Positions 1 through 35,721 of a stretch of DNA of 64,000 nt are shown in pieces; within the stretch, counting starts at the first letter, position 1; every line of letters begins with the position of its first letter. The position numbers and the translations under genes were made by a program. Location: the NCBI GenBank assembly GCA_030272155.1, contig CP126201.1, positions 3,818,501 to 3,882,500 on the forward strand. The letters are read 5' to 3'. The stretch is from Tetradesmus obliquus (lineage: Eukaryota > Chlorophyta > Chlorophyceae > Sphaeropleales > Scenedesmaceae). The notes under the pieces were generated by a model. The model was given only the letters and a program-made list of their open reading frames with translations. It had not been told where the DNA came from and ran no database searches.

Positions 1-3000
1 TCCTGTTGTTGCTGCTGTCGTGGCTGCCGCTGTTGCCGTGCTGCTGGCTGCTGCCGCTGTTGCTGCTGCTGCTGCCGCTGCTGCCGCTGCTGTTGTTGCC
101 GCTGAAATGCAGGGTGCGGCACTGCTGTTACATCTACCACACAACATGGCGCCCATTGGAGGGCTGCTGTGTCCATTAGGACAGCTGTTGTGGCCTTCAA
201 GCTGCCATCCTGCTGCACCTTGTAGCACTTGGTGGTGCCATCGTGTTGCAACTGTTGTGCCCACTGTTGCTGCGTGTCGGTCTGCCATGCACCTGTGCTG
301 CCCTCCCGCAGAGTGTGCAGCCATGCCGGCGGCAGCACAATGCCATCTTGCTGCGGCTGTCCAGTTAGCTGCTGCTGCACCTGCCCCAGTGTGGTGCCTG
401 CGCCGTGGCGCAGCTGAGCAGGGAGGGCACCGGCTGCTGCCAACATCTGCCCATCTGAGCTGCTGCCCACGCTGTGGTTCCCCACCAGCAGCTCAAGCTG
501 GATCTGCTGGCTGGTCATGGCGCTGTGCTCGACGTGCCTGTGAATGCCCACGCTTTGCAGCGCCTCTATGTATGCTGATAGGCGCAGCGGCAGCCTGCCG
601 CCCCTGGCGGCAGCCTGCAGCGGCGCCTTTGATCGCTGCACCAACGCTGCCTCCCCTAGTCCTGGCAGTGCGTGGCGCAGGTTGGCCCGCATGAAGGCCT
701 TCCATGGGGCTCGCCGCGGCGACAGCAATGCTGCTGCTGTACGTGCCTGCATTGCTGTGGCGTGCGCCCTGACATCAACCTGCCTCATTCCGCCCATGCT
801 GAAAGGCAGGCTGGCCACTGCTGCCGGAGGGCTTTCATTCCACTGCCGGATGTTGGCTTCTCGAGCGCAGCCCTGCTCTGTCACAAACCCTAAGAGGCGG
901 CGGTGCATCCTGGCCATGATATCTACTGGGACTGGCACGAACTGCGCATGATAGGTGATGCAAGATGCCATCATCTGCTGCGCAACTGCGCAGCGCCCCA
1001 AATAGCTGAGATTCTGCCGTGCCCACTGCCGCGCCCGGTATGTGATGGTTTGCAGGCGCTGCGTGTACAGCGCTGCTGCATGCGGCTCTGCGCCTGCTGC
1101 TGACAGCAGCAGACCCAGGTGCCTGATCGGGTGTAGTGCTGTATCATGGAACGGTATCTGCGTGGCTGGATCTACCCCTACAAACGGCTGCTGCGTGCCC
1201 ACTTCCATGCCCTGGCACTTGCTGACTCCCAGCTTGGCGCCACTCGCTGCACAAAACGGCTGTACTGCTTTCCTCACCAGCACAGCAACGCCTTGCCTGC
1301 TGGCGGCGTGCAGGGTGGTGTCGTCTGCATGCTGCATGCTGCAGGGTGCTGCTGAGCCATCGGGCATGCTGATGCTGTCCACTTCCCCTGCTGCTTGCAG
1401 CGCTCTGCATTTGGCCGCCAGCGGCTGCGCTGCTAGCACATACAGCAGCGGGCTGAGTGGGCTGCCCTGCGCGCAGCCAGAGGGGATGTCAAACACCCTG
1501 CTGAGGTGGCCGCCGTTGAACACGATGCGGCCCTGTGTGCCTGCCAGCAGCAGCTGTACCCACCTACGCATGCCTGGCGGGAACTGCATTGCTGCCATGC
1601 ACTTCATCAGCCATTCCCTGTCTAGCCTGTCATAGGCCTTCTCAAAATCCAGAAACAAAATGCAGCCGGGCTGCTGCTGCGTCCTGAGGAAGTCAACTTC
1701 CTCCAGGTGCAGCAGCACATTGTCTGCAATGTCCCTGCCTGGAACAAACGCTGTCTGAGTGCTGTCCACGACGCTGTCCAGCACTGGCGCCGCCCGCAGC
1801 ACCACCACCTTCGCCAGAATTTTCACATCACAGTTCATCAGCGTGATGGGGCGGTAGCTGGCAGCCTGGTCCCTTGGCTTACCGCCACCCTTGAACAGTA
1901 AGGTGATGAGCCCAAGGCGCTGCTGCGGAGACAGCAGCGCCCCCTCCAGACCAAACCGGAAGTTGCATGCTGCCACAAAAGCTGGTCCTAGCTGCTCCCA
2001 GAATGCGCTATAGAACTCATACGTGAGCCCATCGCTGCCTGGCACCTTCCCTCTAGGCATGCTGTTGAGTGCCGCTGTCGCCTCCTCCAAGGTGATGGTG
2101 CCGTCGCCTGCGGGGCCCAGGCATTGCTGTTGCTGCTCCGAAGAAAGCTGCTTATCCACACACGCAAGCAGCTCCTGCTGCTGCTGTGGGTCGGTGGGGC
2201 GTCGCGAGAACAGCCCGTCTTCTGCAGGGTCATAAAAGTCTGCAAGCAGGCTGCCTGCTGCTGCCGCGCCCTCGCTGCTGCCAGTGGACACTGTGGTGCC
2301 ATCTGCTGCAGCCACAGCGCTGATATACTGCGGCTCCGGCACGGCCTGCCCTAGCCTCGCGCCCCAAAAGCTAGACGGGCCATCAGCGTACAGCTCGTAC
2401 ATCGCATCAGTCTTCTCCTGCTGCTGCTGGCGTTGCTGCACTTCATAATCCAGCAACTGCTGTTCTGCATGCTGAAGGTTGGTTTGCGTCTGCCCATTGC
2501 TGTGCTGGCGCTGCTGCCAGCCGGCTGTTGCCACCGCCCTGCGCAGCCGCCTAAGTTCTGCCTGCTGCTGCAGCCTCTGTCGCTGCATTATGACTGCAGT
2601 GGCAGTCACAGCATGCTGCTTAAGGTGCTCAAACTCAGCTGCTGGGTTGTTGCGCGGCCGCTGCTGCTGCTGCTGCTCCACCGCTGCTGACAGGCTCTCC
2701 TGCATAGCTGAGACAAAGGCTGCGCCACCCAGAGCAGAGGTGGGGAAGCACCACCTGCGCTGTCCAAGGAGCGGCATGCCAGGCGGCCGCAGCTTGACAA
2801 CCACAGGGCGGTGATCTGAAGGCTGCCTCATGTGCTGTGTGGCCTTCTGCAGCCAGCCCTCCTCAACCAGGTCTGCTGACAAGAAGACATAGTCAATCCT
2901 GCCGGCTGACGTGGCTTGATTTGCTGCTGCTGGCTGGCCCTGATCTCGCCTGCTGCCTGCTGCTGCTGCAGCCGCTACTGCAGCCGCCGCGGCTGCAGCA

Positions 3001-3025
3001 TGAGCTGTGGCTGTAGCGTCTGTTA

Positions 3026-3068
<43 letters not shown>

Positions 3069-3788
3069 GGCTGCCGCGTTGCTGCTGCCAGCTGCGCTGC
3101 CATGGTAGCTGTAATGCGTAGGCTGCCTGGCGTGCGGGTTGCAGTGTCGCCACGCATCCACCAGGCCCGAGCGCACAGTGACGCGCTGCAGCTGCGCTGC
3201 CCCCACCATGCGGCGCGAGTGTCGCGCCCGCGTGCCAGCCACTGGCTGCACGTCGATTTCCTGCAAGGCACAGTTGAAGTCCCCGCCCACAATCAGGCTG
3301 GACCCCTGCGCGCCTGCCTCCAGTGCCTCCTGATAAGGCCCCTGAAACCAGGCTGGGCGCCCCGTGGGTTCGTGCGGCGCATACACCGCCACCGCTGCCA
3401 CCTGCTGGCCCCACGGCGTTGTCCAGGCTACCCTGAGTAACCTGCCCTGCCCGTCTGTAAACTCAATCACAGGTTCTGTGTCCTGTTGAACTATTTTCTG
3501 ACTTAGCAGTACTGCCACCCCAACTGAAGCTTGTACGCCAACTTCCAAGGGCTTGCTATTTGCATAGCAGTACCCTTGCCACGGCCTGCCGTGCCCTGCT
3601 CCCTGCTGCGCCCACTGCTGCATCTGCTGGTCGGACCTGCTGTGGGTTTCTGAAAGCAACACAACATCAGACGCCTGCTTCTGCAGCCAAGCAAAGAAAT
3701 CCCTTCGCTTGCCTGCAGCAGCCAAGCCGTTGACATTGACAGCTGCCACGCAGAGGGGCCGCAGTCCGTGCGCTCCTGTTGGCGGCAT
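1..3788 (-). CDS. LINE ORF2 (endonuclease-reverse transcriptase), partial
   Basis: ORF2 of copy 1, open from the TAATG start to the window edge. It carries the endonuclease N-terminus that copy 2 lacks: AAVNVNGL (catalytic Asn region) and LLSETH (catalytic Glu). GGDFN, RIDYV and SDHRPVV follow, giving a complete apurinic-like endonuclease motif set. The reverse transcriptase has LDFEKAYDR (motif A), QGSPLSP (motif B) and HADDTT (motif C, His in place of the usual Tyr/Phe), within about 1317-1655 on this strand. No stop or frameshift was seen, so this copy may encode active enzyme. With the shared 3' part of copy 2, full ORF2 would be about 1,795 aa, inflated by Gln and Ala tracts. Confidence 0.85.
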
Positions 3789-3790
3789 TA
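3786..3790 (-). promoter_or_regulatory. TAATG stop-start junction between ORF1 and ORF2
   Basis: The ORF1 stop TAA (3790-3788) and the first in-frame ATG of ORF2 (3788-3786) share one base. ORF2 read from that ATG (MPPTGAHGLRPL) enters the endonuclease domain at once. Such UAAUG overlaps support termination-reinitiation of ORF2 in other LINEs, the tested case being silkworm SART1. Coupled translation here is inference from the overlap. Confidence 0.7.
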
Positions 3791-4560
3791 AGAGCGGCGC
3801 CCGCCGCGAAGGCGGGACTTCTGTGCTGGAGTGGCAGGCTGCGTAGCTGGCTGTGTCGCTGTTACTATTGTGTTGTGGTGCTGCTGCTGCGGCAGTGACG
3901 CTAGTACTGCAAAGTTGTTGACGTTGTGGCCAAAGACAGGGTTTGGCTCCTTGCGCTGCCGGCTGGGGTAGCGCCCTACGGGTGGTGACGATGCTGCACC
4001 TGCTGCTGCTGGTGTTGCTGTCCTGGTCGACTTCGCCGCTGCTGCTGCTGCTGCAGCTGTTGCTGCAGCTGCTGTTGCAGCAGACTGCCGCGCCGTCCTA
4101 CCCTTAGCCCCCTGGCCCCTGCCCTGAGCTGTGTTGCTGTCTGCTGCTGCCGTTGCTCCAGCCGCAACTGTGCTCATCCCTCCCCTACCATACTCAGCAT
4201 CCTCGTATGAGGCTGCTGCAACAGCAGGGAAGTGCTGCTGCAGCCACTGCTGCACAAACAGCGCCTCTTCTGCTTTAGACACTAAGGCTGCACCATGCTG
4301 CATGTAGAACGCACTCAGCATATCTCCCTTCACCTGCTCAGTGAACTGGCCACTGTCCAGTTTGCCCTGCAGGGTATCGCTGAGGGACTCCTCCATCTCC
4401 GTGTGGCATTGGCCTGGCCGGGCTATCTCTGCTGCTGCTGCTGCTGCTGCGGCGGCTGCTCCTGCTGGCGTGGCTGTGGCGGCAGCTGCATCCGGCTGCT
4501 GGGCAAACGGGTCCAGAGGGAATGCTGCATCCATGCAGGCAGCAGCAGTCTGCGCTGTGG

Positions 4561-4610
<50 letters not shown>

Positions 4611-4744
4611 ATTTGCAGCAGGTGTTGCTGCTGCTGCGGCAACGGCAGCTGTCGAGGTATGGCTGCTCCTGACTGCACATGCGCGTCCTCCATCTCTGCA
4701 TCATCAACAGTCTGCTGCTGCTCGAACATTTCACCCACATGCAT
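3788..4744 (-). CDS. LINE ORF1 protein, 318 aa, low complexity
   Basis: Open frame of 318 codons before ORF2, the position of the nucleic-acid-binding ORF1 protein of LINEs. The protein has a Gln tract from a (CTG)n run at about 4563-4611 and Ala-rich stretches. A more ordinary central part follows (around LSDTLQGKLDSGQ and EEALFVQQWLQQHF), and the C-terminus is basic and ends in RLRGGRRS. I see no CCHC knuckle or RRM, so the ORF1 role rests on position. The first codons (MHVGEMFE) lie in sequence shared with the 311-bp monomer. Translation could instead start at a later Met (MEDAHV) if the monomer junction is a truncation point. Confidence 0.7.
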
Positions 4745-5180
4745 ATGAGAACCTTAAATGAGTAGGGGCGGAAGATGAAACGAAGCGCAGCGGCCCTCGA
4801 ATAGTCCGGGCCGTTGCATTTGTAGCCGGCGCGCATACTTGGCCGTCCTGGACGAATGGGATGTGTTCGTTGAGCAATGTTTAATATGTTTTAACAAGTT
4901 GGTTTATGTTTTTTTTTTGAAGTTGGTTTATGTTGATTAATAATCAAACAATGTCGTCGGAGCGACCGGGCTGAACCTAGCAGGTTGGCACGGGTGTCGG
5001 TCCACTGCCACTGGAAATTGGTTGGGCCTGCAAAAATACCTACGCGTCCGTTTGAGCTCGGACATTTCACCCACATGCATATGAGAACCTTAAATGAGTA
5101 GGGGCGGAAGATGAAACGAAGCCCAGCGGCCCTCGAATAGTCCGGGCCGTTGCATTTGTAGCCGGCGCGCATACTTGGCC

Positions 5181-5386
5181 GGAGCAAGTGCACAGTTATT
5201 TAGGTCAGCCCTTGTAACGTTCTTGCTTCCAAAAAAAAAAAAAAGTTACTTAGGTCAGCCCTTGTAACTTTCTTGCTTCCCCAACTTTCTTGCTTCCCCA
5301 AAAAAAACTTTTTTGCTTCCCCCCCAAAAAAAAAGGCGTAGGAGCGACCAGGCTGAACACACATTTTTTTTTTGAAGCCAAAAAAA
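5181..5386 (+). repeat. Compound of stacked LINE tails (first of 13 copies)
   Basis: About 206 bp made of the last 30-50 bp of the LINE (GTCAGCCCTTGTAACGTTC..., TTCTTGCTTC) plus A-runs, repeated several times in a row. A diverged monomer piece (GGAGCGACCAGGCTGAACAC) and a reversed tail (T-run then GAAGCC) follow. The arrangement looks like tail upon tail inserted at earlier A-runs. Near-identical compounds lie at 7477-7682, 8564-8768, 11445-11650, 12532-12738, 14341-14544, 15093-15299, 17003-17206, 25421-25626, 28311-28497, 30872-31078, 32274-32479 and 33988-34193. They spread by duplication rather than by fresh insertion, since the internal order is the same each time. Confidence 0.8.
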
Positions 5387-5885
5387 TCCTACTCGTCCGT
5401 TTGAGCTCGGACATTTCACCCACATGCATATGAGAACCTAAAAAAAAATATGAGAACCTTAAATGAGTAGGGGCGGAAGATGAAACGAAGCGCAGCGGCC
5501 CTCGAATTGTCCGGGCCGTTGCATTTGTAGCCGGCGCGCATACTTGGCCGTCCTGGACGAATGGGATGTGTTCGTTGAGTAATGTTTAATATGTTATAAC
5601 AAGTTGGTTTGTGTTGATTAATAATCAAACAATGTCGTCAGTTACTTAGGTCAGCCCTTGTAACTTTCTTGCTTCAAAAAATGACCTTTCTTGCTTCAAA
5701 AAAAATGTCGTCGGAGCGACCGGGCTGAACCTAGCAGGTTGGCACGGGTGTCGGTCCCTTGCCACTGGAAATTGGTTGGGCCTGCAAAAATCCTACTCGT
5801 CCGTTTGAGCTCGGACATTTCACCCACATGCATATGAGAACCTTAAATGAGTAGGGGCGGATGATGAAACGAAGCGCAGCGGCCC

Positions 5886-6209
5886 TTTTTTTTTTATTTT
5901 TTTTTTGAAGCAAGAACGTTACAAGGGCTGACCTAAATAACTGTGCACTTGCTCCATAAAAAGATCCATTGAGAGAGTGAGGCAACCTGTTCCGCACTCA
6001 CTCCACAGGTCTCTTGTACCAAGAGACGCTGTCACACGATCATGCAGACAGCCCCTTGCGGAGCAGCCCCGAAAGGCATCCAGGACCTGACCGAGTGCCC
6101 AGACTCCACTAAAATCACAGTCGCGCAATGACGTCCTGTGATGTGTGACATACCGTGACTGGCCCTTGAAACAAAATCTGCCCATGGCGTAACTGTCAGC
6201 TATCACTGC
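5886..6209 (-). mobile_element. 5'-truncated LINE 3' end, minus strand
   Basis: Poly(T) at 5886-5906 (one interrupting A) followed by the reverse complement of the last ~300 bp of the LINE 3' UTR. It is inserted in a monomer at GCGCAGCGGCC, which recurs at its far side. That far copy was then the landing site of the next, plus-strand element, so this one is older. Confidence 0.85.
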
Positions 6210-6223
6210 ATGGCGCAGCGGCC

Positions 6224-6645
6224 TGTGTCGACAATCCGTCACCTATTAATAGGCGTCTTGTGTAGGTGTCGTAATGCTGCCTGTAAAGTGCAGCTTGTAG
6301 AGGTGTACAAGTCACCATGCAGTGATAGCTGACAGTTGCGCCATGGACGGATTTTGATTCAAGGGCCAGTCACGGTATGTCACACATCACAGGACGTCAT
6401 TGCGCGGCTGTGATTTTAGTGGAGTCTGGGCACTCGGTCAGGTCCTGGATGCCTTTCGGGGCTGCTCCGCAAGGGGCTGTCTGCATGATCGTGTGACAGC
6501 GTCTCTTGGTACAAGAGACCTGTGGAGTGAGTGCGGAACAGGTTGCCTCACTCTCTCAATGGATCTTTTTATGGAGCAAGTGCACAGTTATTTAGGTCCG
6601 CCCTTGTAACGTTCTTGCTTCAAAAAAAAAAAAAAAAAAAAAAAA
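6224..6645 (+). mobile_element. 5'-truncated LINE 3' end, plus strand
   Basis: About 398 bp of LINE 3' UTR, beginning TGTGTCGACAATCC, plus poly(A) from 6622. It is flanked by the 14-bp TSD ATGGCGCAGCGGCC at 6210-6223 and 6646-6659. Together with the minus-strand element at 5886-6209 it forms a large inverted repeat with tails facing outwards. Confidence 0.88.
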
Positions 6646-6796
6646 ATGGCGCAGCGGCCCTCGAATTGTCCGGGCCGTTGCATTTGTAGCCGGCGCGCAT
6701 ACTTGGCCGTCCTGGACGAATGGGATGTGTTCGTTGAGCAATGTTTAATATGTTATAACAAGTTGGTTTATGTTGATTAATAATCAAACGATGTCG

Positions 6797-6840
6797 CAAG
6801 TGCACAGTTATTTAGGTCAGCCCTTGTAACGTTCTTGCTT

Positions 6841-6872
<32 letters not shown>
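6797..6872 (+). mobile_element. Very short LINE tail insertion
   Basis: Only about 45 bp of the LINE 3' end (from CAAGTGCACAG) plus about 31 A, flanked by AAACGATGTCG at 6786-6796 and 6873-6883. The same insertion is seen again at 24738-24815, next to copy 2, so the two monomer blocks share ancestry. Confidence 0.85.
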
Positions 6873-6876
<4 letters not shown>

Positions 6877-6953
6877 GATGTCGTCGGAGCGACCGGGCTG
6901 AACCTAGCAGGTTGGCACGGGTGTCGGTCCACTGCCACTGGAAATTGGTTGGG

Positions 6954-6977
6954 TTCTTGCTTCAAAAAAAAAAAAAA
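6954..6977 (+). mobile_element. Ultra-short LINE tail insertion (10 bp plus A-run)
   Basis: TTCTTGCTTC plus an A-run between direct repeats ATTGGTTGGG at 6944-6953 and 6978-6987. The uninterrupted target is present in other monomers. Shared copies lie near 10922-10945 and 24896-24920. Confidence 0.8.
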
Positions 6978-7206
6978 ATTGGTTGGGCCTGCAAAAATCC
7001 TACTCGTCCGTTTGAGCTCGGACATTTCACCCACATGCATATGAGAACCTTAAATGAGTAGGGGCGGAAGATGAAACGAAGCGCAGCGGCCCTCGAATTG
7101 TCCGGGCCGTTGCATTTGTAGCCGGCGCGCATACTTGGCCGTCCTGGACGAATGGGATGTGTTCGTTGAGCAATGTTTAATATGTTATAACAAGTTGGTT
7201 TATGTT

Positions 7207-7215
7207 TTTTTTTTG
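7207..7215 (-). mobile_element. Tail-only insertion, 9 bp, with 15-bp duplication
   Basis: Eight T and a G separate two copies of AAGTTGGTTTATGTT (7192-7206 and 7216-7230), a motif found once in plain monomers. It reads as a reversed LINE tail of which almost only poly(A) remains. The same event recurs in many units (for example 4911, 8293, 11175, 14072, 30602, 32003, 33717). Confidence 0.7.
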
Positions 7216-7735
7216 AAGTTGGTTTATGTTGATTAATAATCAAACAATGTCGTCGGAGCGACCGGGCTGAACCTAGCAGGTTGGCACGGGTGTCGGTCCA
7301 CTGCCACTGGAAATTGGTTGGGCCTGCAAAAATACCTACGCGTCCGTTTGAGCTCGGACATTTCACCCACATGCATATGAGAACCTTAAATGAGTAGGGG
7401 CGGAAGATGAAACGAAGCGCAGCGGCCTTCGAATAGTCCGGGCCGTTGCATTTGTAGCCGGCGCGCATACTTGGCCGGAGCAAGTGCACAGTTATTTAGG
7501 TCAGCCCTTGTAACGTTCTTGCTTCCAAAAAAAAAAAAAAGTTACTTAGGTCAGCCCTTGTAACTTTCTTGCTTCCCCAACTTTCTTGCTTCCCCAAAAA
7601 AAACTTTCTTGCTTCCCCCCCAAAAAAAAAGGCGTAGGAGCGACCAGGCTGAACACACATTTTTTTTTTGAAGCCAAAAAAATCCTACTCGTCCGTTTGA
7701 GCTCGGACATTTCACCCACATGCATATGAGAACCT

Positions 7736-7743
7736 AAAAAAAA
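7736..7743 (+). mobile_element. Poly(A)-only insertion with 12-bp duplication
   Basis: An 8-base A-run lies between ATATGAGAACCT at 7724-7735 and 7744-7755, a motif present once in plain monomers. It is inherited by the units at 5438, 11704, 14600, 15353, 28552, 31133, 32535 and 34250. Confidence 0.65.
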
Positions 7744-9571
7744 ATATGAGAACCTTAAATGAGTAGGGGCGGAAGATGAAACGAAGCGCAGCGGCCCTCG
7801 AATTGTCCGGGCCGTTGCATTTGTAGCCGGCGCGCATACTTGGCCGTCCTGGACGAATGGGATGTGTTCGTTGAGTAATGTTTAATATGTTATAACAAGT
7901 TGGTTTGTGTTGATTAATAATCAAACAATGTCGTCAGTTACTTAGGTCAGCCCTTGTAACTTTCTTGCTTCAAAAAAAACCTTTCTTGCTTCAAAAAAAA
8001 TGTCGTCGGAGCGACCGGGCTGAACCTAGCAGGTTGGCACGGGTGTCGGTCCCTTGCCACTGGAAGTTGGTTGGGCCTGCAAAAATCCTACTCGTCCGTT
8101 TGAGCTCGGACATTTCACCCACATGCATATGAGAACCTTAAATAAGTAGGGGCGGAAGATGAAACGAAGCGCAGCGGCCCTCGAATTGTCCGGGCCGTTG
8201 CATTTGTAGCCGGCGCGCATACTTGGCCGTCCTGGACGAATGAGATGTGTTCGTTGAGCAATGTTTAATATGTTATAACAAGTTGGTTTATGTTTTTTTT
8301 TGAAGTTGGTTTATGTTGATTAATAATCAAACAATGTCGTCGGAGCGACCGGGCTGAACCTAGCAGGTTGGCACGGGTGTCGGTCCACTGCCACTGGAAA
8401 TTGGTTGGGCCTGCAAAAATACCTACGCGTCCGTTTGAGCTCGGACATTTCACCCACATGCATATGAGAACCTTAAATGAGTAGGGGCGGAAGATGAAAC
8501 GAAGCCCAGCGGCCCTCGAATAGTCCGGGCCGTTGCATTTGTAGCCGGCGCGCATACTTGGCCGGAGCAAGTGCACAGTTATTTAGGTCAGCCCTTGTAA
8601 CGTTCTTGCTTCCAAAAAAAAAAAAAGTTACTTAGGTCAGCCCTTGTAACTTTCTTGCTTCCCCAACTTTCTTGCTTCCCCAAAAAAAACTTTCTTGCTT
8701 CCCCCCCAAAAAAAAAGGCGTAGGAGCGACCAGGCTGAACACACATTTTTTTTTTTGAAGCCAAAAAAATCCTACTCGTCCGTTTGAGCTCGGACATTTC
8801 ACCCACATGCATATGAGAACCTTAAATGAGTAGGGGCGGAAGATGAAACGAAGCGCAGCGGCCCTCGAATTGTCCGGGCCGTTGCATTTGTAGCCGGCGC
8901 GCATACTTGGCCGTCCTGGACGAATGAGATGTGTTCGTTGAGCAATGTTTAATATGTTATAACAAGTTGGTTTATGTTTTTTTTTGAAGTTGGTTTATGT
9001 TGATTAATAATCAAACAATGTCGAAGTAGATGTTAGGATAGGTTGTGGGATACCGTTTGCATGGCTGCAGGGAAGGTCGCCTGAGATCAAACTTGTTGAC
9101 TTTGAGCAGAAGTGGGGAGCACTGTATAGGATGGGCGCAAATGGGCGCATCAAGGTTCGGGCCAGCGCGGCTGGCATGTGAGGGATGGATTGGGCACGGG
9201 TCTACGAGGCGTGGTGGTCTGTTTTGACGGTTCGGGCGGGGTGTACAATGCATTCGTTGGAGTAGTGGCCGTCGTTCCTCGTTGTGATGTGTTGCAAAAT
9301 AGTATGGCAAAGGCTAAGTTGATGGCCGGGATACGTTATGTATGCATGTGAGTGGGTAGCAGAGTACGTTATGTATGCGTGCGTGTGGGTAGCAGTGTAC
9401 GAGGATGTGTGCAGCATGTGTGGATTAGTTTGTGTGTGTGTGGATTGGGCACGGGTCTACGAGGCGTGGTGGTCTGTTTTGACGGTTCGGGCAGGGTGTA
9501 CAATGCATTCGTTGGAGTAGTGGCCGTCGTTCCTCGTTGTGATGTGTTGCAAAATAGTATGGCAAAGGCTA

Positions 9572-9573
<2 letters not shown>

Positions 9574-9605
<32 letters not shown>

Positions 9606-10125
9606 AAGCAAGAACGTTACAAGGGCTGACCTAAATAACTGTGCACTTGCTCCATAAAAAGATCCATTGAGAGAGTGAGGCAACCTGTTCCGCACTCACT
9701 CCACAGGTCTCTTGTACCAAGAGACGCTGTCACACGATCATGCAGACAGCCCCTTGCGGAGCAGCCCCGAAAGGCATCCAGGACCTGACCGAGTGCCCAG
9801 ACTCCACTAAAATCACAGCCGCGCAATGACGTCCTGTGATGTGTGACACACCGTGACTGGCCCTTGAAACAAAATCTGTCCATGGCGTAACTGTCAGCTA
9901 TCACTGCATGGTGACTTGTACACCTCTACAAGCTGCACTTTACAGGCAGCATTACGACACCTACACAAGACGCCTATTAATAGGTGACGGATTGTCGACA
10001 CAGACAATCCCCACCTGACTATTCATTGACTCTCCACTTCATGCAAAGCACATCCTGCTACTGACCGAACATACACCTATGAGATATGTGGCATTCTGTA
10101 GGAAATGACACCACCTCAGGCACAC
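9574..10125 (-). mobile_element. LINE 3' end inserted into another LINE
   Basis: Poly(T) at 9574-9604 then about 520 bp of reversed 3' UTR. It is flanked by the 10-bp duplication AAAGGCTAAG at 9564-9573 and 10126-10135, inside the plus-strand LINE. A clear example of self-nesting. Confidence 0.88.
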
Positions 10126-10360
10126 AAAGGCTAAGTTGATGGCCGGGATACGTTATGTATGCATGTGAGTGGGTAGCAGAGTACGTTATGTATGCGTGCG
10201 TGTGGGTAGCAGTGTACGAGGATGTGTGCAGCATGTGTGGATTAGCTTGTGTGTGTGTGGCTTTGTGTGCCTGAGGTGGTGTCATTTCCTACAGAATGCC
10301 ACATATCTCATAGGTGTATGTTCGGTCAGTAGCAGGATGTGCTTTGCATGAAGTGGAGAG

Positions 10361-10378
10361 AAAAAAAAAAAAAAAAAA
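10361..10378 (+). mobile_element. Poly(A)-only insertion in LINE 3' UTR
   Basis: A pure A-run interrupts the 3' UTR of the plus-strand LINE, with AAGTGGAGAG at 10351-10360 and again at 10379-10388. The uninterrupted sequence is seen in the element at 17463-18466. Confidence 0.75.
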
Positions 10379-10812: not shown

Positions 10813-10844
<32 letters not shown>

Positions 10845-13542: not shown

Positions 13543-13574
<32 letters not shown>

Positions 13575-20964: not shown

Positions 20965-21021
<57 letters not shown>

Positions 21022-24157: not shown

Positions 24158-24209
<52 letters not shown>

Positions 24210-24692: not shown

Positions 24693-24737
24693 TGTTTAAT
24701 ATGTTATAACAAGTTGGTTTATGTTGATTAATAATCA

Positions 24738-25688: not shown

Positions 25689-26140
25689 TCCTGGCTGCCA
25701 GTCTGAGGTTGTTGAGGATGAGTTTCATATGGTCTTTGAGTGCCCTTTCTATGCACCAGTCCGCGAGCGATTTGCTATGTTGTTCGAACCCTTCGGGGAC
25801 TCGTCACAAACATGGGCTACTATTGCTGGTTGTCACCCAGCAGGCGATGACATGATCACTTTTATGAAGCAGGCACCTGCTTTGGTGGCCGCTTTTGTGC
25901 ACTGCTGCTATCTGATGCGGTGTCACCCGGACACTGATCCTGAGGTCCTTCTGTCCTCTCAGGCTATTGCTCAAGCTATTGATGATGCTGATGAGTTTTT
26001 TTCTGCGTTGTCGTCTGACGGTTTGGACGATGATGAGTTGTTCTTCGATGTTTCCTCCCCCTATGAGCCTCTCGTTGGCTCCTGACTGGGGTTCCCACTC
26101 CTCGTTGAGTGGAGCATGTAATGTAATGTAATGTAATGTA
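25689..26140 (+). mobile_element. 3' fragment of an unrelated LINE with (ATGTA)n tail
   Basis: 452 bp inserted into the 8-9 base A-run found in sister units (AACCTAAAAAAAAATATGAG, as at 7731). It differs from the surrounding family in sequence and in codon use, which is less CAG-rich. It ends in five ATGTA units (26116-26140) instead of poly(A). The TSD cannot be defined inside the A-run. It is present in only one of the many similar units, so it came after their duplication. Confidence 0.85.
25691..26085 (+). pseudogene. C-terminal remnant of a second LINE reverse transcriptase ORF
   Basis: The frame is open from the left break to TGA at 26083-26085. It reads PGCQSEVVEDEFHMVFECPF and so on: a Cys...Glu-Asp...His...Cys pattern like the zinc knuckle at the end of LINE ORF2 proteins. 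An acidic C-terminus follows (DDADEFFSALSSDGLDDDEL). Only about 130 codons survive and there is no RT core. Only 30 bp separate the stop from the ATGTA repeats, a very short 3' UTR. Confidence 0.75.
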
Positions 26141-27500
26141 AAAATATGAGAACCTTAAATGAGTAGGGGCGGAAGATGAAACGAAGCGCAGCGGCCCTCG
26201 AATTGTCCGGGCCGTTGCATTTGTAGCCGGCGCGCATACTTGGCCGTCCTGGACGAATGGGATGTGTTCGTTGAGTAATGTTTAATATGTTATAACAAGT
26301 TGGTTTGTGTTGATTAATAATCAAACAATGTCGTCAGTTACTTAGGTCAGCCCTTGTAACTTTCTTGCTTCAAAAAAAACCTTTCTTGCTTCAAAAAAAA
26401 TGTCGTCGGAGCGACCGGGCTGAACCTAGCAGGTTGGCACGGGTGTCGGTCCCTTGCCACTGGAAGTTGGTTGGGCCTGCAAAAATCCTACTCGTCCGTT
26501 TGAGCTCGGACATTTCACCCACATGCATATGAGAACCTTAAATGAGTAGGGGCGGAAGATGAAACGAAGCGCAGCGGCCCTCGAATTGTCCGGGCCGTTG
26601 CATTTGTAGCCGGCGCGCATACTTGGCCGTCCTGGACGAATGAGATGTGTTCGTTGAGCAATGTTTAATATGTTATAACAAGTTGGTTTATGTTTTTTTT
26701 TGAAGTTGGTTTATGTTGATTAATAATCAAACAATGTCGTCGGAGCGACCGGGCTGAACCTAGCAGGTTGGCACGGGTGTCGGTCCACTGCCACTGGAAA
26801 TTGGTTGGGCCTGCAAAAATACCTACACGTCCGTTTGAGCTCGGACATTTCACCCACATGCATATGAGAACCTTAAATGAGTAGGGGCGGAAGATGAAAC
26901 GAGGCCCAGCGGCCCTCGAATAGTCCGGGCCATTGCATTTGTAGCCGGCGCGCATACTTGGCCGGAGCAAGTGCACAGTTATTTAGGTCAGCCCTTGTTT
27001 TTTTTTTTTTTTTTTTGAAGCAAGAACGTTACAAGGGCTGACCTAAATAACTGTGCACTTGCTCCATAAAAAGATCCATTGAGAGAGTGAGGCAACCTGT
27101 TCCGCACTCACTCCACAGGTCTCTTGTACCAAGAGACGCTGTCACACGATCATGCAGACAGCCCCTTGCGGAGCAGCCCCGAAAGGCATCCAGGACCTGA
27201 CCGAGTGCCCAGACTCCACTAAAATCACAGTCGCGCAATGACGTCCTGTGATGTGTGACATACCGTGACTGGCCCTTGAAACAAAATCTGTCCATGGCGT
27301 AACTGTCAGCTATCACTGCATGGTGACTTGTACACCTCTACAAGCTGCACTTTACAGGCAGCATTACGACACCTACACAAGACGCCTATTAATAGGTGAC
27401 GGATTGTCGACACAGACAATCCCCACCTGACTATTCATGGACTCTCCACTTCATGCAAAGCACATCCTGCTACTGACCGAACATACACCTATGAGATATG

Positions 27501-27863
27501 TTTTTTTTTTTTTTTTTTTTTTTTTTTGAAGCAAGAATGTTACAAGGGCTGACCTAAATAACTGTGCACTTGCTCCATAAAAAGATCCATTGAGAGAGTG
27601 AGGCAACCTGTTCCGCACTCACTCCACAGGTCTCTTGTATCAAGAGACGCTGTCACACGATCATGCAGACAGCCCCTTGCGGAGCAGCCCCGAAAGGCAT
27701 CCAGGACCTGACCGAGTGCCCAGACTCCACTAAAATCACAGTCGCGCAATGACGTCCTGTGATGTGTGACATACCGTGACTGGCCCTTGAAACAAAATCT
27801 GTCCATGGCGTAACTGTCAGCTATCACTGCATGGTGACTTGTACACCTCTACAAGCTGCACTT
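27501..27863 (-). mobile_element. LINE tail nested in a LINE
   Basis: Poly(T) at 27501-27527 plus reversed 3' UTR, flanked by TGAGATATG at 27492-27500 and 27864-27872. Orientation is the same as its host. Confidence 0.88.
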
Positions 27864-27960
27864 TGAGATATGTGGCATTCTGTAGGAAATGACACCACCT
27901 CAGGCACACAAAGCCACACACACACAAACTAATCCACACATGCTGCACACATCCTCGTAC

Positions 27961-27985
27961 GTTCTTGCTTCAAAAAAAAAAAAAA
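27961..27985 (+). mobile_element. Ultra-short LINE tail with 35-bp TSD
   Basis: GTTCTTGCTTC plus A-run, between two identical 35-bp stretches at 27926-27960 and 27986-28020. The target is single in other LINE copies (for example 19285-19327). The inserted LINE part is shorter than the duplication it made. Confidence 0.85.
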
Positions 27986-28204
27986 AAACTAATCCACACA
28001 TGCTGCACACATCCTCGTACACTGCTACCCACACACACGCATACATAACGTACTCTGCTACCCACTCACATGCATACATAACGTATCCCGGCCATCAACT
28101 TAGCCTTTACCATACTATTTTGCAACACATCACAACGAGGAACGACGGCCACTACTCCAACGAATGCATTGTACACCCCGCCCGAACCGTCAAAACAGAC
28201 CACC

Positions 28205-28207
28205 GTT

Positions 28208-28240
<33 letters not shown>
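28205..28240 (+). mobile_element. Poly(A) insertion with GTTC remnant
   Basis: GTTC plus about 32 A between AAAACAGACCACC at 28192-28204 and 28241-28253, inside the host LINE 3' UTR. Confidence 0.78.
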
Positions 28241-28245
<5 letters not shown>

Positions 28246-28862
28246 AGACCACCACGCCTCGTAGACCCGTGCCCAATCCATCCCTCACATGCCAGCCGCG
28301 CTGGCCCGAACGTCAGCCCTTGTAACGTTCTTGCTTTCAAAAAAAAAAAAAGTTACTTAGGTCAGCCCTTGTAACTTTCTTGCTTCCCCAACTTTCTTGC
28401 TTCCCCAAAAAAAAACTTTCTTGCTTCCCCCCCAAAAAAAAGGGCGTAGGAGCGACCAGGCTGAACACACACATTTTTTTTTTTGAAGCCAAAAAAATCC
28501 TACTCGTCCGTTTGAGCTCGGACATTTCACCCACATGCATATGAGAACCTAAAAAAAAAATATGAGAACCTTAAATGAGTAGGGGCGGAAGATGAAACGA
28601 AGCGCAGCGGCCCTCGAATTGTCCGGGCCGTTGCATTTGTAGCCGGCGCGCATACTTGGCCGTCCTGGACGAATGGGATGTGTTCGTTGAGTAATGTTTA
28701 ATATGTTATAACAAGTTGGTTTGTGTTGATTAATAATCAAACAATGTCGTCAGTTACTTAGGTCAGCCCTTGTAACTTTCTTGCTTCAAAAAAAAACCTT
28801 TCTTGCTTCCAAAAAAATGTCGTCGGAGCGACCGGGCTGAACCTAGCAGGTTGGCACGGGTG

Positions 28863-28956
28863 TTTTTTTTTTTTTTTTTTTTTTTTGAAGCAAGTAGTAA
28901 TCAAGCAACCCAAGCATAGCTTGGACCAGCGACCCAACAGACTGCTCTCACTGGGA
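28863..28956 (-). mobile_element. Retroinsertion of foreign ~60-bp sequence with LINE-like tail
   Basis: In the minus-strand sense, about 60 bp of sequence not found elsewhere in the window is followed by CTTGCTTC and 24 A, the LINE terminus. The whole is flanked by the 12-bp TSD TTGGCACGGGTG (28851-28862 and 28957-28968). It looks like a chimera of another transcript and the LINE tail, as arises by template switching. The source sequence was not recognised. Confidence 0.72.
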
Positions 28957-29142
28957 TTGGCACGGGTGTCGGTCCCTTGCCACTGGAAATTGGTTGGGCC
29001 TGCAAAAATCCTACTCGTCCGTTTGAGCTCGAACATTTCACCCACATGCATATGAGAACCTTAAATGAGTAGGGGCGGAAGATGAAACGAAGCGCAGCGG
29101 CCCTCGAATCGTCCGGGCCGTTGCATTTGTAGCCGGCGCGCA

Positions 29143-29147
<5 letters not shown>

Positions 29148-29176
<29 letters not shown>

Positions 29177-30518
29177 AAGCAAGAACGTTACAAGGGCTGA
29201 CCTAAATAACTGTGCACTTGCTCCATAAAAAGATCCATTGAGAGAGTGAGGCAACCTGTTCCGCACTCACTCCACAGGTCTCTTGTACCAAGAGACGCTG
29301 TCACACGATCATGCAGACAGCCCCTTGCGGAGCAGCCCCGAAAGGCATCCAGGACCTGACCGAGTGCCCAGACTCCACTAAAATCACAGTCGCGCAATGA
29401 CGTCCTGTGATGTGTGACAGACCGTGACTGGCCCTTGAAACAAAATCTGTCCATGGCGTAACTGTCAGCTATCACTGCATGGTGACTTGTACACCTCTAC
29501 AAGCTGCACTTTACAGGCAGCATTACGACACCTACACAAGACGCCTATTAATAGGTGACGGACTGTCGACACAGACAATCCCCACCTGACTATTCATTGA
29601 CTCTCCACTTCATGCAAAGCACATCCTGCTACTGACCGAACATACACCTATGAGATATGTGGCATTCTGTAGGAAATGACACCACCTCAGGCACACAAAG
29701 CCACACACACACAAACTAATCCACACATGCTGCACACATCCTCGTACACTGCTACCCACACGCACGCATACATAACGTACTCTGCTACCCACTCACATGC
29801 ATACATAACGTATCCCGGCCATCAACTTAGCCTTTGCCATACTATTTTGCAACACATCACAACGAGGAACGACGGCCACTACTCCAACGAATGCATTGTA
29901 CACCCCGCCCGAACCGTCAAAACAGACCACCACGCCTCGTAGACCCGTGCCCAATCCATCCCTCACATGCCAGCCGCGCTGGCCCGAACCTTGATGCGCC
30001 CATTTGCGCCCATCCTATACAGTGCTCCCCACTTCTGCTCAAAGTCAACAAGTTTGATCTCAGGCGACCTTCCCTGCAGCCATGCAAACGGTATCCCACA
30101 ACCTATCCTAACATCTACTTCCACCCTATCCCACTCCCTCTGAATTTGCTGCCGCAGCTCTGCCAGAAACCTACACGCCACAGCCTTAGCAGCGTATGAT
30201 GAGCTGCCCGGCTCGCCAGTTGTACCCCGTTGACAGCCCATGCTGCTGCTGTTGCTGCTGCTGTCCTCTGCATCGCTGATGCCGTGGCTCTGAGATTGAG
30301 AATTGCTGCCTGCATTGCGGCTGCCGCTGCCATCGCTGCCATCTGCACTGGCCACAATCACGCCAGCCCTGATGCTGCTGCAGCGCACCACCCAAATGGA
30401 CTCCAGCAGCAGCAGACGCAGCTGCGTCCACATCTGCTGTTGTCCTGCTGGCGGGGCCCACACACTGAAGTCATCCAGCAGCAGCAGACGGCTGTTATTA
30501 ACAGGGACCACTGCTCCG
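29148..30518 (-). mobile_element. LINE copy 3, 1.37 kb, clean TSD
   Basis: Poly(T), complete 3' UTR and the last ~185 codons of ORF2 (to VPVNNSRLLLLDD), 5'-truncated. Flanked by CGCGCATACTT at 29137-29147 and 30521-30531. A few base differences from copy 2 (for example near 30131 and 30233) show it is a separate lineage. Confidence 0.9.
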
Positions 30519-30568
30519 GGCGCGCATACTTGGCCGTCCTGGACGAATGGGATGTGTTCGTTGAGCAA
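29963..30568 (-). pseudogene. ORF2 C-terminal remnant fused to a monomer-derived start
   Basis: 201 codons: 14 residues MLNEHIPFVQDGQV from the monomer plus about 185 residues of the ORF2 C-terminus. It has no RT core. As in copy 2, the fused frame starts at the same monomer Met, here by chance of the truncation point. Confidence 0.75.
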
Positions 30569-30871
30569 TGTTTAATATGTTATAACAAGTTGGTTTATGT
30601 TTTTTTTTTGAAGTTGGTTTATGTTGATTAATAATCAAACAATGTCGTCGGAGCGACCGGGCTGAACCTAGCAGGTTGGCACGGGTGTCGGTCCACTGCC
30701 ACTGGAAATTGGTTGGGCCTGCAAAAATACCTACGCGTCCGTTTGAGCTCGGACATTTCACCCACATGCATATGAGAACCTTAAATGAGTAGGGGCGGAA
30801 GATGAAACGAGGCCCAGCGGCCCTCGAATAGTCCGGGCCATTGCATTTGTAGCCGGCGCGCATACTTGGCC

Positions 30872-33800
30872 GGAGCAAGTGCACAGTTATTTAGGTCAGC
30901 CCTTGTAACGTTCTTGCTTCCAAAAAAAAAAAAGTTACTTAGGTCAGCCCTTGTAACTTTCTTGCTTCCCCAACTTTCTTGCTTCCCCAAAAAAAAACTT
31001 TCTTGCTTCCCCCCCAAAAGAAAAGGCGTAGGAGCGACCAGGCTGAACACACACATTTTTTTTTTTGAAGCCAAAAAAATCCTACTCGTCCGTTTGAGCT
31101 CGGACATTTCACCCACATGCATATGAGAACCTAAAAAAAAATATGAGAACCTTAAATGAGTAGGGGCGGAAGATGAAACGAAGCGCAGCGGCCCTCGAAT
31201 TGTCCGGGCCGTTGCATTTGTAGCCGGCGCGCATACTTGGCCGTCCTGGACGAATGGGATGTGTTCGTTGAGTAATGTTTAATATGTTATAACAAGTTGG
31301 TTTGTGTTGATTAATAATCAAACAATGTCGTCAGTTACTTAGGTCAGCCCTTGTAACTTTCTTGCTTCAAAAAAAAACCTTTCTTGCTTCAAAAAAAATG
31401 TCGTCGGAGCGACCGGGCTGAACCTAGCAGGTTGGCACGGGTGTCGGTCCCTTGCCACTGGAAATTGGTTGGGCCTGCAAAAATCCTACTCGTCCGTTTG
31501 AGCTCGGACATTTCACCCACATGCATATGAGAACCTTAAATGAGTAGGGGCGGAAGATGAAACGAAGCGCAGCGGCCCTCGAATTGTCCGGGCCGTTGCA
31601 TTTGTAGCCGGCGCGCATACTTGGCCGTCCTGGACGAATGGGATGTGTTCGTTGAGCAATGTTTAATATGTTATAACAAGTTGGTTTATGTTGATTAATA
31701 ATCAAACGATGTCGTCGGAGCGACCGGGCTGAACCTAGCAGGTTGGCACGGGTGTCGGTCCACTGCCACTGGAAATTGGTTGGGCCTGCAAAAATCCTAC
31801 TCGTCCGTTTGAGCTCGAACATTTCACCCACATGCATATGAGAACCTTAAATGAGTAGGGGCGGAAGATGAAACGAAGCGCAGCGGCCCTCGAATCGTCC
31901 GGGCCGTTGCATTTGTAGCCGGCGCGCATACTTGGCCGTCCTGGACGAATGGGATGTGTTCGTTGAGCAATGTTTAATATGTTATAACAAGTTGGTTTAT
32001 GTTTTTTTTTTGAAGTTGGTTTATGTTGATTAATAATCAAACAATGTCGTCGGAGCGACCGGGCTGAACCTAGCAGGTTGGCACGGGTGTCGGTCCACTG
32101 CCACTGGAAATTGGTTGGGCCTGCAAAAATACCTACGCGTCCGTTTGAGCTCGGACATTTCACCCACATGCATATGAGAACCTTAAATGAGTAGGGGCGG
32201 AAGATGAAACGAGGCCCAGCGGCCCTCGAATAGTCCGGGCCATTGCATTTGTAGCCGGCGCGCATACTTGGCCGGAGCAAGTGCACAGTTATTTAGGTCA
32301 GCCCTTGTAACGTTCTTGCTTCCAAAAAAAAAAAAAGTTACTTAGGTCAGCCCTTGTAACTTTCTTGCTTCCCCAACTTTCTTGCTTCCCCAAAAAAAAA
32401 CTTTCTTGCTTCCCCCCCAAAAAAAAAGGCGTAGGAGCGACCAGGCTGAACACACACATTTTTTTTTTGAAGCCAAAAAAATCCTACTCGTCCGTTTGAG
32501 CTCGGACATTTCACCCACATGCATATGAGAACCTAAAAAAAAAATATGAGAACCTTAAATGAGTAGGGGCGGAAGATGAAACGAAGCGCAGCGGCCCTCG
32601 AATTGTCCGGGCCGTTGCATTTGTAGCCGGCGCGCATACTTGGCCGTCCTGGACGAATGGGATGTGTTCGTTGAGTAATGTTTAATACGTTATAACAAGT
32701 TGGTTTGTGTTGATTAATAATCAAACAATGTCGTCAGTTACTTAGGTCAGCCCTTGTAACTTTCTTGCTTCAAAAAAAAACCTTTCTTGCTTCAAAAAAA
32801 ATGTCGTCGGAGCGACCGGGCTGAACCTAGCAGGTTGGCACGGGTGTCGGTCCCTTGCCACTGGAAATTGGTTGGGCCTGCAAAAATCCTACTCGTCCGT
32901 TTGAGCTCGGACATTTCACCCACATGCATATGAGAACCTGAAATGAGTAGGGGCGGAAGATGAAACGAAGCGCAGCGGCCCTCGAATTGTCCGGGCCGTT
33001 GCATTTGTAGCCGGCGCGCATACTTGGCCGTCCTGGACGAATGGGATGTGTTCGTTGAGCAATGTTTAATATGTTATAACAAGTTGGTTTATGTTGATTA
33101 ATAATCAAACGATGTCGTCGGAGCGACCGGGCTGAACCTAGCAGGTTGGCACGGGTGTCGGTCCACTGCCACTGGAAATTGGTTGGGCCTGCAAAAATCC
33201 TACTCGTCCGTTTGAGCTCGAACATTTCACCCACATGCATATGAGAACCTTAAATGAGTAGGGGCGGAAGATGAAACGAAGCGCAGCGGCCCTCGAATCG
33301 TCCGGGCCGTTGCATTTGTAGCCGGCGCGCATACTTGGCCGTCCTGGACGAATGGGATGTGTTCGTTGAGCAATGTTTAATATGTTATAACAAGTTGGTT
33401 TATGTTGATTAATAATCAAACGATGTCGTCGGAGCGACCGGGCTGAACCTAGCAGGTTGGCACGGGTGTCGGTCCACTGCCACTGGAAATTGGTTGGGCC
33501 TGCAAAAATCCTACTCGTCCGTTTGAGCTCGAACATTTCACCCACATGCATATGAGAACCTTAAATGAGTAGGGGCGGAAGATGAAACGAAGCGCAGCGG
33601 CCCTCGAATCGTCCGGGCCGTTGCATTTGTAGCCGGCGCGCATACTTGGCCGTCCTGGACGAATGGGATGTGTTCGTTGAGCAATGTTTAATATGTTATA
33701 ACAAGTTGGTTTATGTTTTTTTTTTGAAGTTGGTTTATGTTGATTAATAATCAAACAATGTCGTCGGAGCGACCGGGCTGAACCTAGCAGGTTGGCACGG

Positions 33801-35440
33801 GTGTCGGTCCACTGCCACTGGAAATTGGTTGGGCCTGCAAAAATACCTACGCGTCCGTTTGAGCTCGGACATTTCACCCACATGCATATGAGAACCTTAA
33901 ATGAGTAGGGGCGGAAGATGAAACGAGGCCCAGCGGCCCTCGAATAGTCCGGGCCATTGCATTTGTAGCCGGCGCGCATACTTGGCCGGAGCAAGTGCAC
34001 AGTTATTTAGGTCAGCCCTTGTAACGTTCTTGCTTCCAAAAAAAAAAAAAGTTACTTAGGTCAGCCCTTGTAACTTTCTTGCTTCCCCAACTTTCTTGCT
34101 TCCCCAAAAAAAAACTTTCTTGCTTCCCCCCCCAAAAAAAAGGCGTAGGAGCGACCAGGCTGAACACACACATTTTTTTTTTGAAGCCAAAAAAATCCTA
34201 CTCGTCCGTTTGAGCTCGGACATTTCACCCACATGCATATGAGAACCTAAAAAAAAAATATGAGAACCTTAAATGAGTAGGGGCGGAAGATGAAACGAAG
34301 CGCAGCGGCCCTCGAATTGTCCGGGCCGTTGCATTTGTAGCCGGCGCGCATACTTGGCCGTCCTGGACGAATGGGATGTGTTCGTTGAGTAATGTTTAAT
34401 ATGTTATAACAAGTTGGTTTGTGTTGATTAATAATCAAACAATGTCGTCAGTTACTTAGGTCAGCCCTTGTAACTTTCTTGCTTCAAAAAAAAACCTTTC
34501 TTGCTTCAAAAAAAATGTCGTCGGAGCGACCGGGCTGAACCTAGCAGGTTGGCACGGGTGTCGGTCCCTTGCCACTGGAAATTGGTTGGGCCTGCAAAAA
34601 TCCTACTCGTCCGTTTGAGCTCGGACATTTCACCCACATGCATATGAGAACCTTAAATGAGTAGGGGCGGAAGATGAAACGAAGCGCAGCGGCCCTCGAA
34701 TTGTCCGGGCCGTTGCATTTGTAGCCGGCGCGCATACTTGGCCGTCCTGGACGAATGGGATGTGTTCGTTGAGCAATGTTTAATATGTTATAACAAGTTG
34801 GTTTATGTTGATTAATAATCAAACGATGTCGTCGGAGCGACCGGGCTGAACCTAGCAGGTTGGCACGGGTGTCGGTCCACTGCCACTGGAAATTGGTTGG
34901 GCCTGCAAAAATCCTACTCGTCCGTTTGAGCTCGAACATTTCACCCACATGCATATGAGAACCTTAAATGAGTAGGGGCGGAAGATGAAACGAAGCGCAG
35001 CGGCCCTCGAATCGTCCGGGCCGTTGCATTTGTAGCCGGCGCGCATACTTGGCCGTCCTGGACGAATGGGATGTGTTCGTTGAGCAATGTTTAATATGTT
35101 ATAACAAGTTGGTTTATGTTGATTAATAATCAAACGATGTCGTCGGAGCGACCGGGCTGAACCTAGCAGGTTGGCACGGGTGTCGGTCCACTGCCACTGG
35201 AAATTGGTTGGGCCTGCAAAAATCCTACTCGTCCGTTTGAGCTCGAACATTTCACCCACATGCATATGAGAACCTTAAATGAGTAGGGGCGGAAGATGAA
35301 ACGAAGCGCAGCGGCCCTCGAATCGTCCGGGCCGTTGCATTTGTAGCCGGCGCGCATACTTGGCCGTCCTGGACGAATGGGATGTGTTCGTTGAGCAATG
35401 TTTAATATGTTATAACAAGTTGGTTTATGTTTTTTTTTTG
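30872..35440. repeat. Higher-order repeat array, 1,714-bp unit
   Basis: Units at 30872-32273 (1,402 bp, one monomer fewer), 32274-33987 (1,714 bp) and 33988-35440 (partial). Each has the same order: tail compound, A-run monomer, double-tail monomer, two or three plain 311-bp monomers, then a monomer with the T-run/15-bp duplication. Units differ by single bases and A-run lengths. This is the organisation of a homogenised satellite with higher-order repeats. Confidence 0.88.
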
Positions 35441-35470
35441 AAGTTGGTTTATGTTGATTAATTATTCAAT

Positions 35471-35721
35471 TAATTATCCAACCAATTTCCAGTGGCAGTG
35501 GACCGACACCCGTGCCAACCTGCTAGGTTCAGCCCGGTCGCTCCGACGACATTTTGTTATTATTAATCAACATAAACCAACTTGTTTTAACTATATAATT
35601 AAACATTGCTCAACGAACACATCCCATTCGTCCAGGACGGCCAAGTATGCGCGCCGGCTAAAAATGCAACGGCCGGACTATTCGAGGGCCGCTGCGCTTC
35701 GTTTGATCTTCCGCCCCTACT
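35471..35721 (-). repeat. Inverted, diverged terminal monomer (array edge)
   Basis: The sequence from CCAACCAATTTCCAGTGGC to CCGCCCCTACTC is the reverse complement of the monomer with many changes. It is the only monomer in this orientation and the most diverged. Edge units of satellite arrays are usually the oldest, so this probably marks the cluster boundary. Confidence 0.85.

Follow-up and report, generated by a model that had tools for sequence, protein, structure and literature searches.

We analyzed a stretch of 64,000 nucleotides from the green alga Tetradesmus obliquus (assembly GCA_030272155.1, contig CP126201.1, positions 3,818,501 to 3,882,500 of the forward strand), hereafter called the window. 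Positions 1 to 35,722 of the window belong to a cluster composed of a single long interspersed nuclear element (LINE) family and a satellite with a 311-bp monomer. We propose that this cluster serves chromosome 11 as its regional centromere and that the genome has 17 centromeres of this kind, and we put the probability of this reading at about 0.83. CENH3 kinetochores would then be sited on the LINE and satellite clusters. A first-pass annotation of the window had suggested a centromere candidate: the finding of one internal cluster on every contig (see below) strengthens the suggestion, and kinetochore function is still deduced from sequence. In positions 1 to 35,722, 19,016 b are LINE and 13,744 b are satellite, together 92%. 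As the annotation had described, the LINE is inserted into itself in both orientations and the satellite possesses higher-order repeats (HORs). The residue outside LINE and satellite is 2,962 b. Gaps of at least 40 b total 2,122 b, and the gaps contain thirteen stretches of 102-106 b, one foreign insert of 459 b and poly-A runs. From 35,723 to 64,000, the satellite has 0 matches and the LINE matches (676 b) are gone after low-complexity masking. The block described by the annotation was confirmed, but its left limit was too short: the whole cluster is about 88 kb long, with a left border at about C11:3,766,563, approximately 52 kb beyond the window, and the window holds the right end. When LINE bodies are excluded, the GC content of this cluster is about 0.45-0.51, as compared with 0.52-0.63 in the flanks.

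The assembly contains 104,662,953 b in 17 contigs (C1 to C17; the window lies on C11). Each of the 17 contigs has one internal cluster in which the LINE and the approximately 311-bp satellite occur together; many scattered clusters per chromosome, the outcome that the annotation had named as counter-evidence, were not seen among the best candidates, which were the ones scored in each search. A search with the reverse transcriptase (RT) domain gave 133 matches. All 42 matches with at least 82% identity are inside clusters, on 13 contigs, and 89 of the remaining 91 (24-40% identity, other families) are outside, the two inside being at C9:4156773 and C6:3116092. A search with the C-terminus of open reading frame (ORF) 2 gave 151 matches: of the 150 listed, 147 are inside clusters, and every one of the 17 contigs has a single such cluster. 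Only the best candidates were scored in these searches (133 of 163 for RT and 147 of 213 for the C-terminus), which covered pieces at least as long as the coding parts used. For five satellite queries, every listed match falls inside the same clusters as the LINE: 150 listed of 325 matches on C11, C12 and C16, all 137 on C3, C6 and C10, 150 listed of 201 on C1, C4, C8 and C15, all 50 on C17, and all 40 on C8, C13 and C15 (candidates scored, in this order: 36 of 116, 36 of 293, 38 of 387, 31 of 31 and 7 of 149). The LINE is therefore strongly biased toward the clusters, whose borders were drawn from the same LINE and satellite hits as are counted inside.

Cluster DNA was sampled unevenly: 88 kb from C11, 60 kb from C16, 40 kb from C3 and 4 kb each from 12 others, C6 and C10 being known through search hits. 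Ten of the 4-kb samples were placed blind between LINE hits, the C12 sample among known satellite hits and the C13 sample on a LINE hit at 1.97 Mb. All 12 contain the LINE, and 11 match two satellite queries (C14 by 296 b only). A 322-bp tandem repeat of its own is present in the C17 sample and looks distantly related by eye; this 322-bp satellite from the C17 cluster (1.907-1.985 Mb) matched on C17 alone (50 of 50 matches at E 1e-10). On most contigs the clusters measure about 50-165 kb between outermost hits. They sum to roughly 1.4 Mb, or about 1.35% of the genome, with the extents on C3, C13 and C16 being minima, and their relative position along the contig is 0.29-0.88 (15 contigs, without C6 and C10).

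A complete-looking LINE copy is located at about C11:3,788,323-3,797,139; positions 3788362-3797139 served as the reference copy. Its tail is T39, its ORF1 region (709 aa) gave no Pfam match, and its ORF2 is 1898 aa long, with endonuclease (PF03372, 3.9e-12) and RT (PF00078, 1.2e-28) domains and a zf-RVT match below the cut-off. The element is an L1-type LINE: its ORF2 carries an APE endonuclease and RT, and A or T runs are found at its 3′ ends. In the truncated copy at window positions 18736..24654, the zf-RVT and endonuclease matches are both below the cut-off. LINE pieces in the window occur in both orientations and are nested, 5′-truncated and mostly reduced to the 3′ end alone; the nesting was followed in full on C11 only. 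Identity to the reference copy is 98.7-100% for 13 of the 15 pieces of at least 150 b, 95.9% for one and 83.7% for another. In part, the element is nearly the same on other chromosomes. For example, 10 mismatches in 3,867 positions and 20 in 3,811 (0.3-0.5%, gaps aside) separate two C4 copies from the C11 copy. RT domains are 98-100% alike wherever they are whole (none was found on C1, C3 and C7), and the top RT score is shared, at 100% identity, by 12 RT domains on C4, C9, C10, C11, C14 and C15. The ORF2 C-terminus falls into two 3′ subfamilies (about 98% and about 87% to the query), which are split mostly by contig: C2, C4, C6, C9, C10, C11, C14 and C15 as opposed to C1, C3, C5, C7, C8, C12, C16 and C17, with exceptions such as C12:3721329 (98%). 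This split does not match the satellite superfamilies, and RT is 98-100% alike in both sets of contigs. In protein searches with the LINE, no Zepp, ZeppL, Coccomyxa or Chlamydomonas name appeared among the best 120 of 351 matches or among 36 matches, most of the proteins being nameless; the named algal relatives among the matches listed were from Scenedesmus sp. PABB004 (52-55%).

In contrast to the RT, the satellite is different on each chromosome tested. We obtained 207 full-length monomers from 12 of the 15 chromosomes examined (the filter gave none for C4, C14 and C17) and built a tree with at most 12 monomers per chromosome, 76 in total. The nearest neighbor of a monomer was on the same chromosome in 76 of 76 cases, and 12 of 12 chromosomes were monophyletic. 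Monomers of a single chromosome share 94-100% identity; for different chromosomes the figure is 72-91% inside one superfamily and 55-61% across the two superfamilies. Thus, the satellite families are chromosome-specific on all 12 chromosomes tested. The test is strong for C3, C11 and C16 only (12 monomers each, from 40-88 kb) because the nine others contributed 2-9 adjacent monomers from a single 4-kb sample. On C11, tandem 311-bp arrays form HORs of 755, 1,403 and 1,714 b, with only 2.3-2.4 units each; the two 1,714-b copies at 31,398-33,111 and 33,112-34,825 are 99.6% identical. On C16, a 1,887-b unit is 99% conserved versus 85% for the 311-b array, and on C10 copies with equal scores are spaced by about 1,706 b. 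The HOR of C3 is not clear-cut (1.9-kb unit, 87-88%; 312-b arrays, 70-97%). The human alpha satellite has 171-bp monomers in megabase arrays, and its units are not known to be defined by LINE-tail inserts. Chromosome-specific families and HOR units that are more alike than neighboring monomers are common to both satellites, although the monomer here is 311 bp rather than 171 bp and LINE-tail inserts mark the units. The annotation had described a homogenised 311-bp satellite: the satellite is real, but many of its units on C11 are composites of monomer and LINE tails.

These embedded tails are the feature that is new here as far as we have searched: very short LINE 3′ tails with an A-run lie inside monomers and have been amplified along with them, in up to 52 copies. 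The last nucleotides of the LINE followed by an A-run occur 237 times in cluster DNA from 15 chromosomes, and 234 occurrences with enough flank collapse to 84 distinct events. A direct repeat (target-site duplication, TSD) of at least 8 b is present at both ends in 37 of the 84 events, whereas shuffling of the right flanks gave 1.8 on average. This is the signature of target-primed reverse transcription. In positions 1 to 35,722 of the window, the motif of LINE 3′ end and A-run was found 37 times; the count was 0 in 35,723-64,000 and 0 in the 27.5-kb left flank. A shorter motif, GTTCTTGCTTC, has one match in the right flank. Fourteen events are amplified (at least 3 copies). Nine of them, on five chromosomes, have tails of at most 50 nt, and five have tails of 71-600 nt. 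The nine short tails are present in 52 copies (C16), 24, 16, 5, 4 and 4 copies (C11), 11 copies (C3), 5 copies (C1) and 3 copies (C8); the 16-copy and 5-copy tails of C11 probably go back to a single insertion. The 342-b monomer of C16, as judged by eye, is a 311-b monomer plus the insert of the 52-copy tail. Our script found a convincing TSD for three of the nine (the 49-nt and 11-nt tails of C11 and the 45-nt tail of C8); one scored on an A-rich stretch only and five scored 0. It should be mentioned that the script misses cases with interrupted A-tails: the 52-copy tail of C16 scored 0, yet TTCCGCCC flanks it by eye. Moreover, at a tail length of 7-10 nt, single cases could be due to chance. 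In the window, thirteen composite units contain a stretch of about 102-106 b, and the ten that were inspected by eye read as one and the same stack of several micro-tails in both orientations.

The account of these features that we favor is as follows. An L1-type LINE with open frames would insert by target-primed reverse transcription almost solely into the clusters, that is, into itself and into the satellite, and would usually be cut down to its 3′ end. Its RNA would be free to reach any chromosome, which could explain why RT domains are near-identical across chromosomes. Meanwhile, local recombination would amplify and homogenise the satellite and so produce HORs and families specific to each chromosome, and very short LINE tails left in monomers would be carried along as marks of new HOR unit types. 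We infer that the LINE is attracted by centromeric chromatin rather than kept there by selection, and it seems to be active at present. A causal role of the tails in satellite amplification may be imagined. In its fullest form, the LINE would drive centromere turnover: an insertion nicks the array, leaving a micro-tail of a few nucleotides with an A-run, and local amplification is then set off by this tail or by the break. We regard this form as doubtful. If it is true, every chromosome keeps receiving new types of HOR unit from a retrotransposon whose own RT is still uniform across the genome. There is an even chance that the tails are passive passengers, with HORs made by unequal exchange alone and any insertion amplified with them, which is compatible with a centromere. 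Large LINE pieces have been duplicated together with the satellite in the window (6796-9768 and 10768-13737, 99.8%), and 5 of the 14 amplified events have tails of 71-600 nt. The excess of tails of at most 50 nt (9 of 14) points the other way, but may reflect the mere loss of long inserts.

The centromere itself was weighed against other explanations of the clusters. They might flank or mark low-recombination pericentromeric heterochromatin, where any insertion survives, with CENH3 on a smaller or different sequence nearby. Such a site would show the same single cluster per contig and the same low gene content, the build-up of nested LINEs would require no targeting, and three LINE copies outside the clusters indicate that the element can land elsewhere. 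However, only 2 of the 91 RT matches from other families are inside clusters, and general survival does not explain why one family is almost wholly inside. Furthermore, host genes begin close to the cluster on C11, as the annotation had stated (within 400 bp): the stop of an M3 peptidase gene is near 36,102, about 380 b past the edge (last exons and stop read by eye), which leaves little room on the right side for a separate heterochromatic belt. We therefore consider this explanation improbable. It is far less probable still that the clusters have some special non-centromeric nature, for example as subtelomeres, heterochromatic knobs or telomere repair sites of the original Zepp type, even though Zepp was first described at Chlorella termini, according to the available part of one report (PMC3446292). 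The clusters are internal (0.29-0.88 along 15 contigs), and a subtelomeric origin was rejected for this reason; among the matches listed, for C1-C3, TTTAGGG telomere repeats cap C1 and C3 on both sides and C2 on the right.

Several observations weigh against clusters that are centromeres on all 17 chromosomes. One cluster per chromosome would equally fit a single pericentromeric block. A CENH3 gene was not recognised: PF00125 gave 42 histone-fold matches, and of the two that were read, L045 matched canonical H3 and L046 is alike by eye. Three C-terminal LINE matches are outside clusters (C5:4.67 Mb twice and C13:3.17 Mb), and stray weak or short copies on the arms may be missed because the searches scored a part of the candidates. 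The C13 cluster (1.96-1.97 Mb) is only about 10 kb as observed. Finally, C16 LINE copies are 88-96% and one C14 piece is 97% identical to the C11 copy, so that the 3′ parts are not uniform; together with the two 3′ types, this means that the LINE is more uniform in its RT than at its 3′ end.

LINE centromeres of the Zepp and ZeppL type are already known in green algae, and by analogy the clusters of T. obliquus may work like a Zepp centromere; the comparisons below rest on the accessible portions of the papers cited. In Coccomyxa subellipsoidea, an L1 LINE nested in itself likewise forms one cluster per chromosome, mostly internal (PMC3446292). Those Zepp clusters are 1.5-42.3 kb and GC-rich relative to the genome, whereas the clusters here are about 50-165 kb on most contigs, satellite-rich and, on C11, AT-richer than their flanks; the portion of that report available to us does not mention a satellite. 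In Chlamydomonas reinhardtii, ZeppL-1_cRei is similarly one LINE family confined to putative centromeres as 5′-truncated nested copies, and these centromeres are 252-480 kb by LINE cluster length (PMC8226300, PMC10030371). A chromosome-specific HOR satellite such as that of T. obliquus is not mentioned for C. reinhardtii in the accessible text of these papers. Chlorella also has regional centromeres of tens of kb built from transposable elements (Copia, L1, RTE-X and unknown elements). They were mapped by CENH3 chromatin immunoprecipitation, and the authors report, in the part available to us, that a tandem satellite is absent in two species (PMC11005252), whereas one is present here. Short AT-rich centromere candidates are described for Auxenochlorella (PMC12633428). 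Outside the algae, CENP-A centromeres of the Drosophila simulans clade consist of 500-bp and 365-bp satellites with G2/Jockey-3 LINE insertions, thus also combining a centromere-biased LINE with complex satellites, one of them chromosome-specific (PMC11620609). That clade is animal and its LINE belongs to the Jockey clade, and LINE tails inside satellite units are not mentioned in the portion of the report at hand (PMC11620609). The annotation had regarded the mix of LINE and true satellite as new. This holds for green algae within the literature searched, but the D. simulans clade is a precedent (PMC11620609). In that literature, mainly open-access and partly seen, we found no report that places a satellite within Zepp or ZeppL clusters or that describes HOR units defined by LINE tails.

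In the same partly seen literature, green-algal centromeres are either clusters of transposable elements or short AT-rich regions. In T. obliquus, Zepp-like LINE clusters are found together with an alphoid-like, chromosome-specific HOR satellite in the candidate centromeres of a single genome. Because both components are present in one compact alga, the origin of centromeric satellites from or beside retrotransposons can be studied there, and the TSD-bearing LINE tails inside HOR units are marks that could reveal in what sequence the events took place. The clusters are small and have already been assembled, which puts CENH3 mapping and comparisons of strains within reach.

Features of the window (64,000 nucleotides). 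Positions are those of the window unless C11 is given; LINE coordinates refer to the reference copy.
Feature	Positions	Strand	Details
LINE copy A	1..4722	-	reference 1661-6391; 99.1% to the C11:3788362-3797139 copy; ORF with RT; 5′-truncated inside ORF1 at 4722; 3′ end left of the window, T-run C11:3816100
Satellite block, monomers with embedded LINE tails	4720..5886	+	sequence match
Stacked LINE micro-tails in composite monomer	5280..5381	both	example, read by eye
Two opposed LINE 3′ ends	5907..6646		minus 5907-6213; plus 6223-6621, A-run up to 6646
Satellite block, composite monomers	6649..9016	+	sequence match
Nested LINE 3′ ends	9020..10843		plus 9020-9446; minus 9605-10129, T-run 9574-9604; plus 10125-10813, A-run up to 10843
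Satellite block	10846..12985	+	sequence match
LINE 3′ ends	12989..13737		plus from 12989-13415 on; then minus 13574-13737, T-run 13543-13573
Satellite block, 755-b HOR	13738..17455	+	minus LINE tail inside, 16236-16399
LINE 3′ end	17459..18469	+	reference 7830-8778; 62-b A tail
Satellite piece	18472..18702	+	
LINE copy B	18736..24654	-	reference 2879-8778; 1717-aa open frame with RT; T-run tail 18736-18754
Satellite block	24651..26964	+	broken by foreign 459-b insert, 25685-26143
Nested LINE pieces, satellite between	27017..30521	-	27017-27501, 27528-27864, 27986-28311, 29176-30521
Satellite block, HORs of 1,403 and 1,714 b	30519..35465	+	31398-33111 versus 33112-34825, 99.6% identical
Inverted satellite piece forming the right cluster edge	35478..35722	-	
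Near-identical micro-tail stretches of about 102-106 b	7576, 8662, 11544, 12631, 14438, 15193, 17102, 25521, 28387		
Gaps of similar length	30969, 32372, 34086		letters not inspected
First host gene right of the cluster, Peptidase_M3 3′ part with introns	36102..37977	-	PF01432 on two exons

The first host gene is presumably that of a mitochondrial intermediate peptidase-like protein. In the gene-rich part of the window, a 234-b unit is present in two copies at 51138-51753, with (GGCA)20 runs on either side. The 459-b insert in the cluster is neither the cluster LINE nor the satellite; it has an (ATGTA)n-type tail at 26116-26141 and resembles, by eye, the 3′ end of another non-LTR element. Elsewhere in the genome, a lone LINE copy at C13:3171384-3172563 is 5′-truncated and 97.7% identical to the reference copy, with no satellite around it, and shows that the LINE is able to insert elsewhere. 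A C13 centromere at 3.17 Mb was rejected because this copy is solitary in satellite-free DNA and satellite and LINE occur together at 1.96-1.97 Mb. L1-like elements of other families (33-39% RT identity) have accumulated locally, away from the clusters, at C1:7.98-8.06 Mb and C8:1.46-1.54 Mb, with several copies within about 80 kb in each case.

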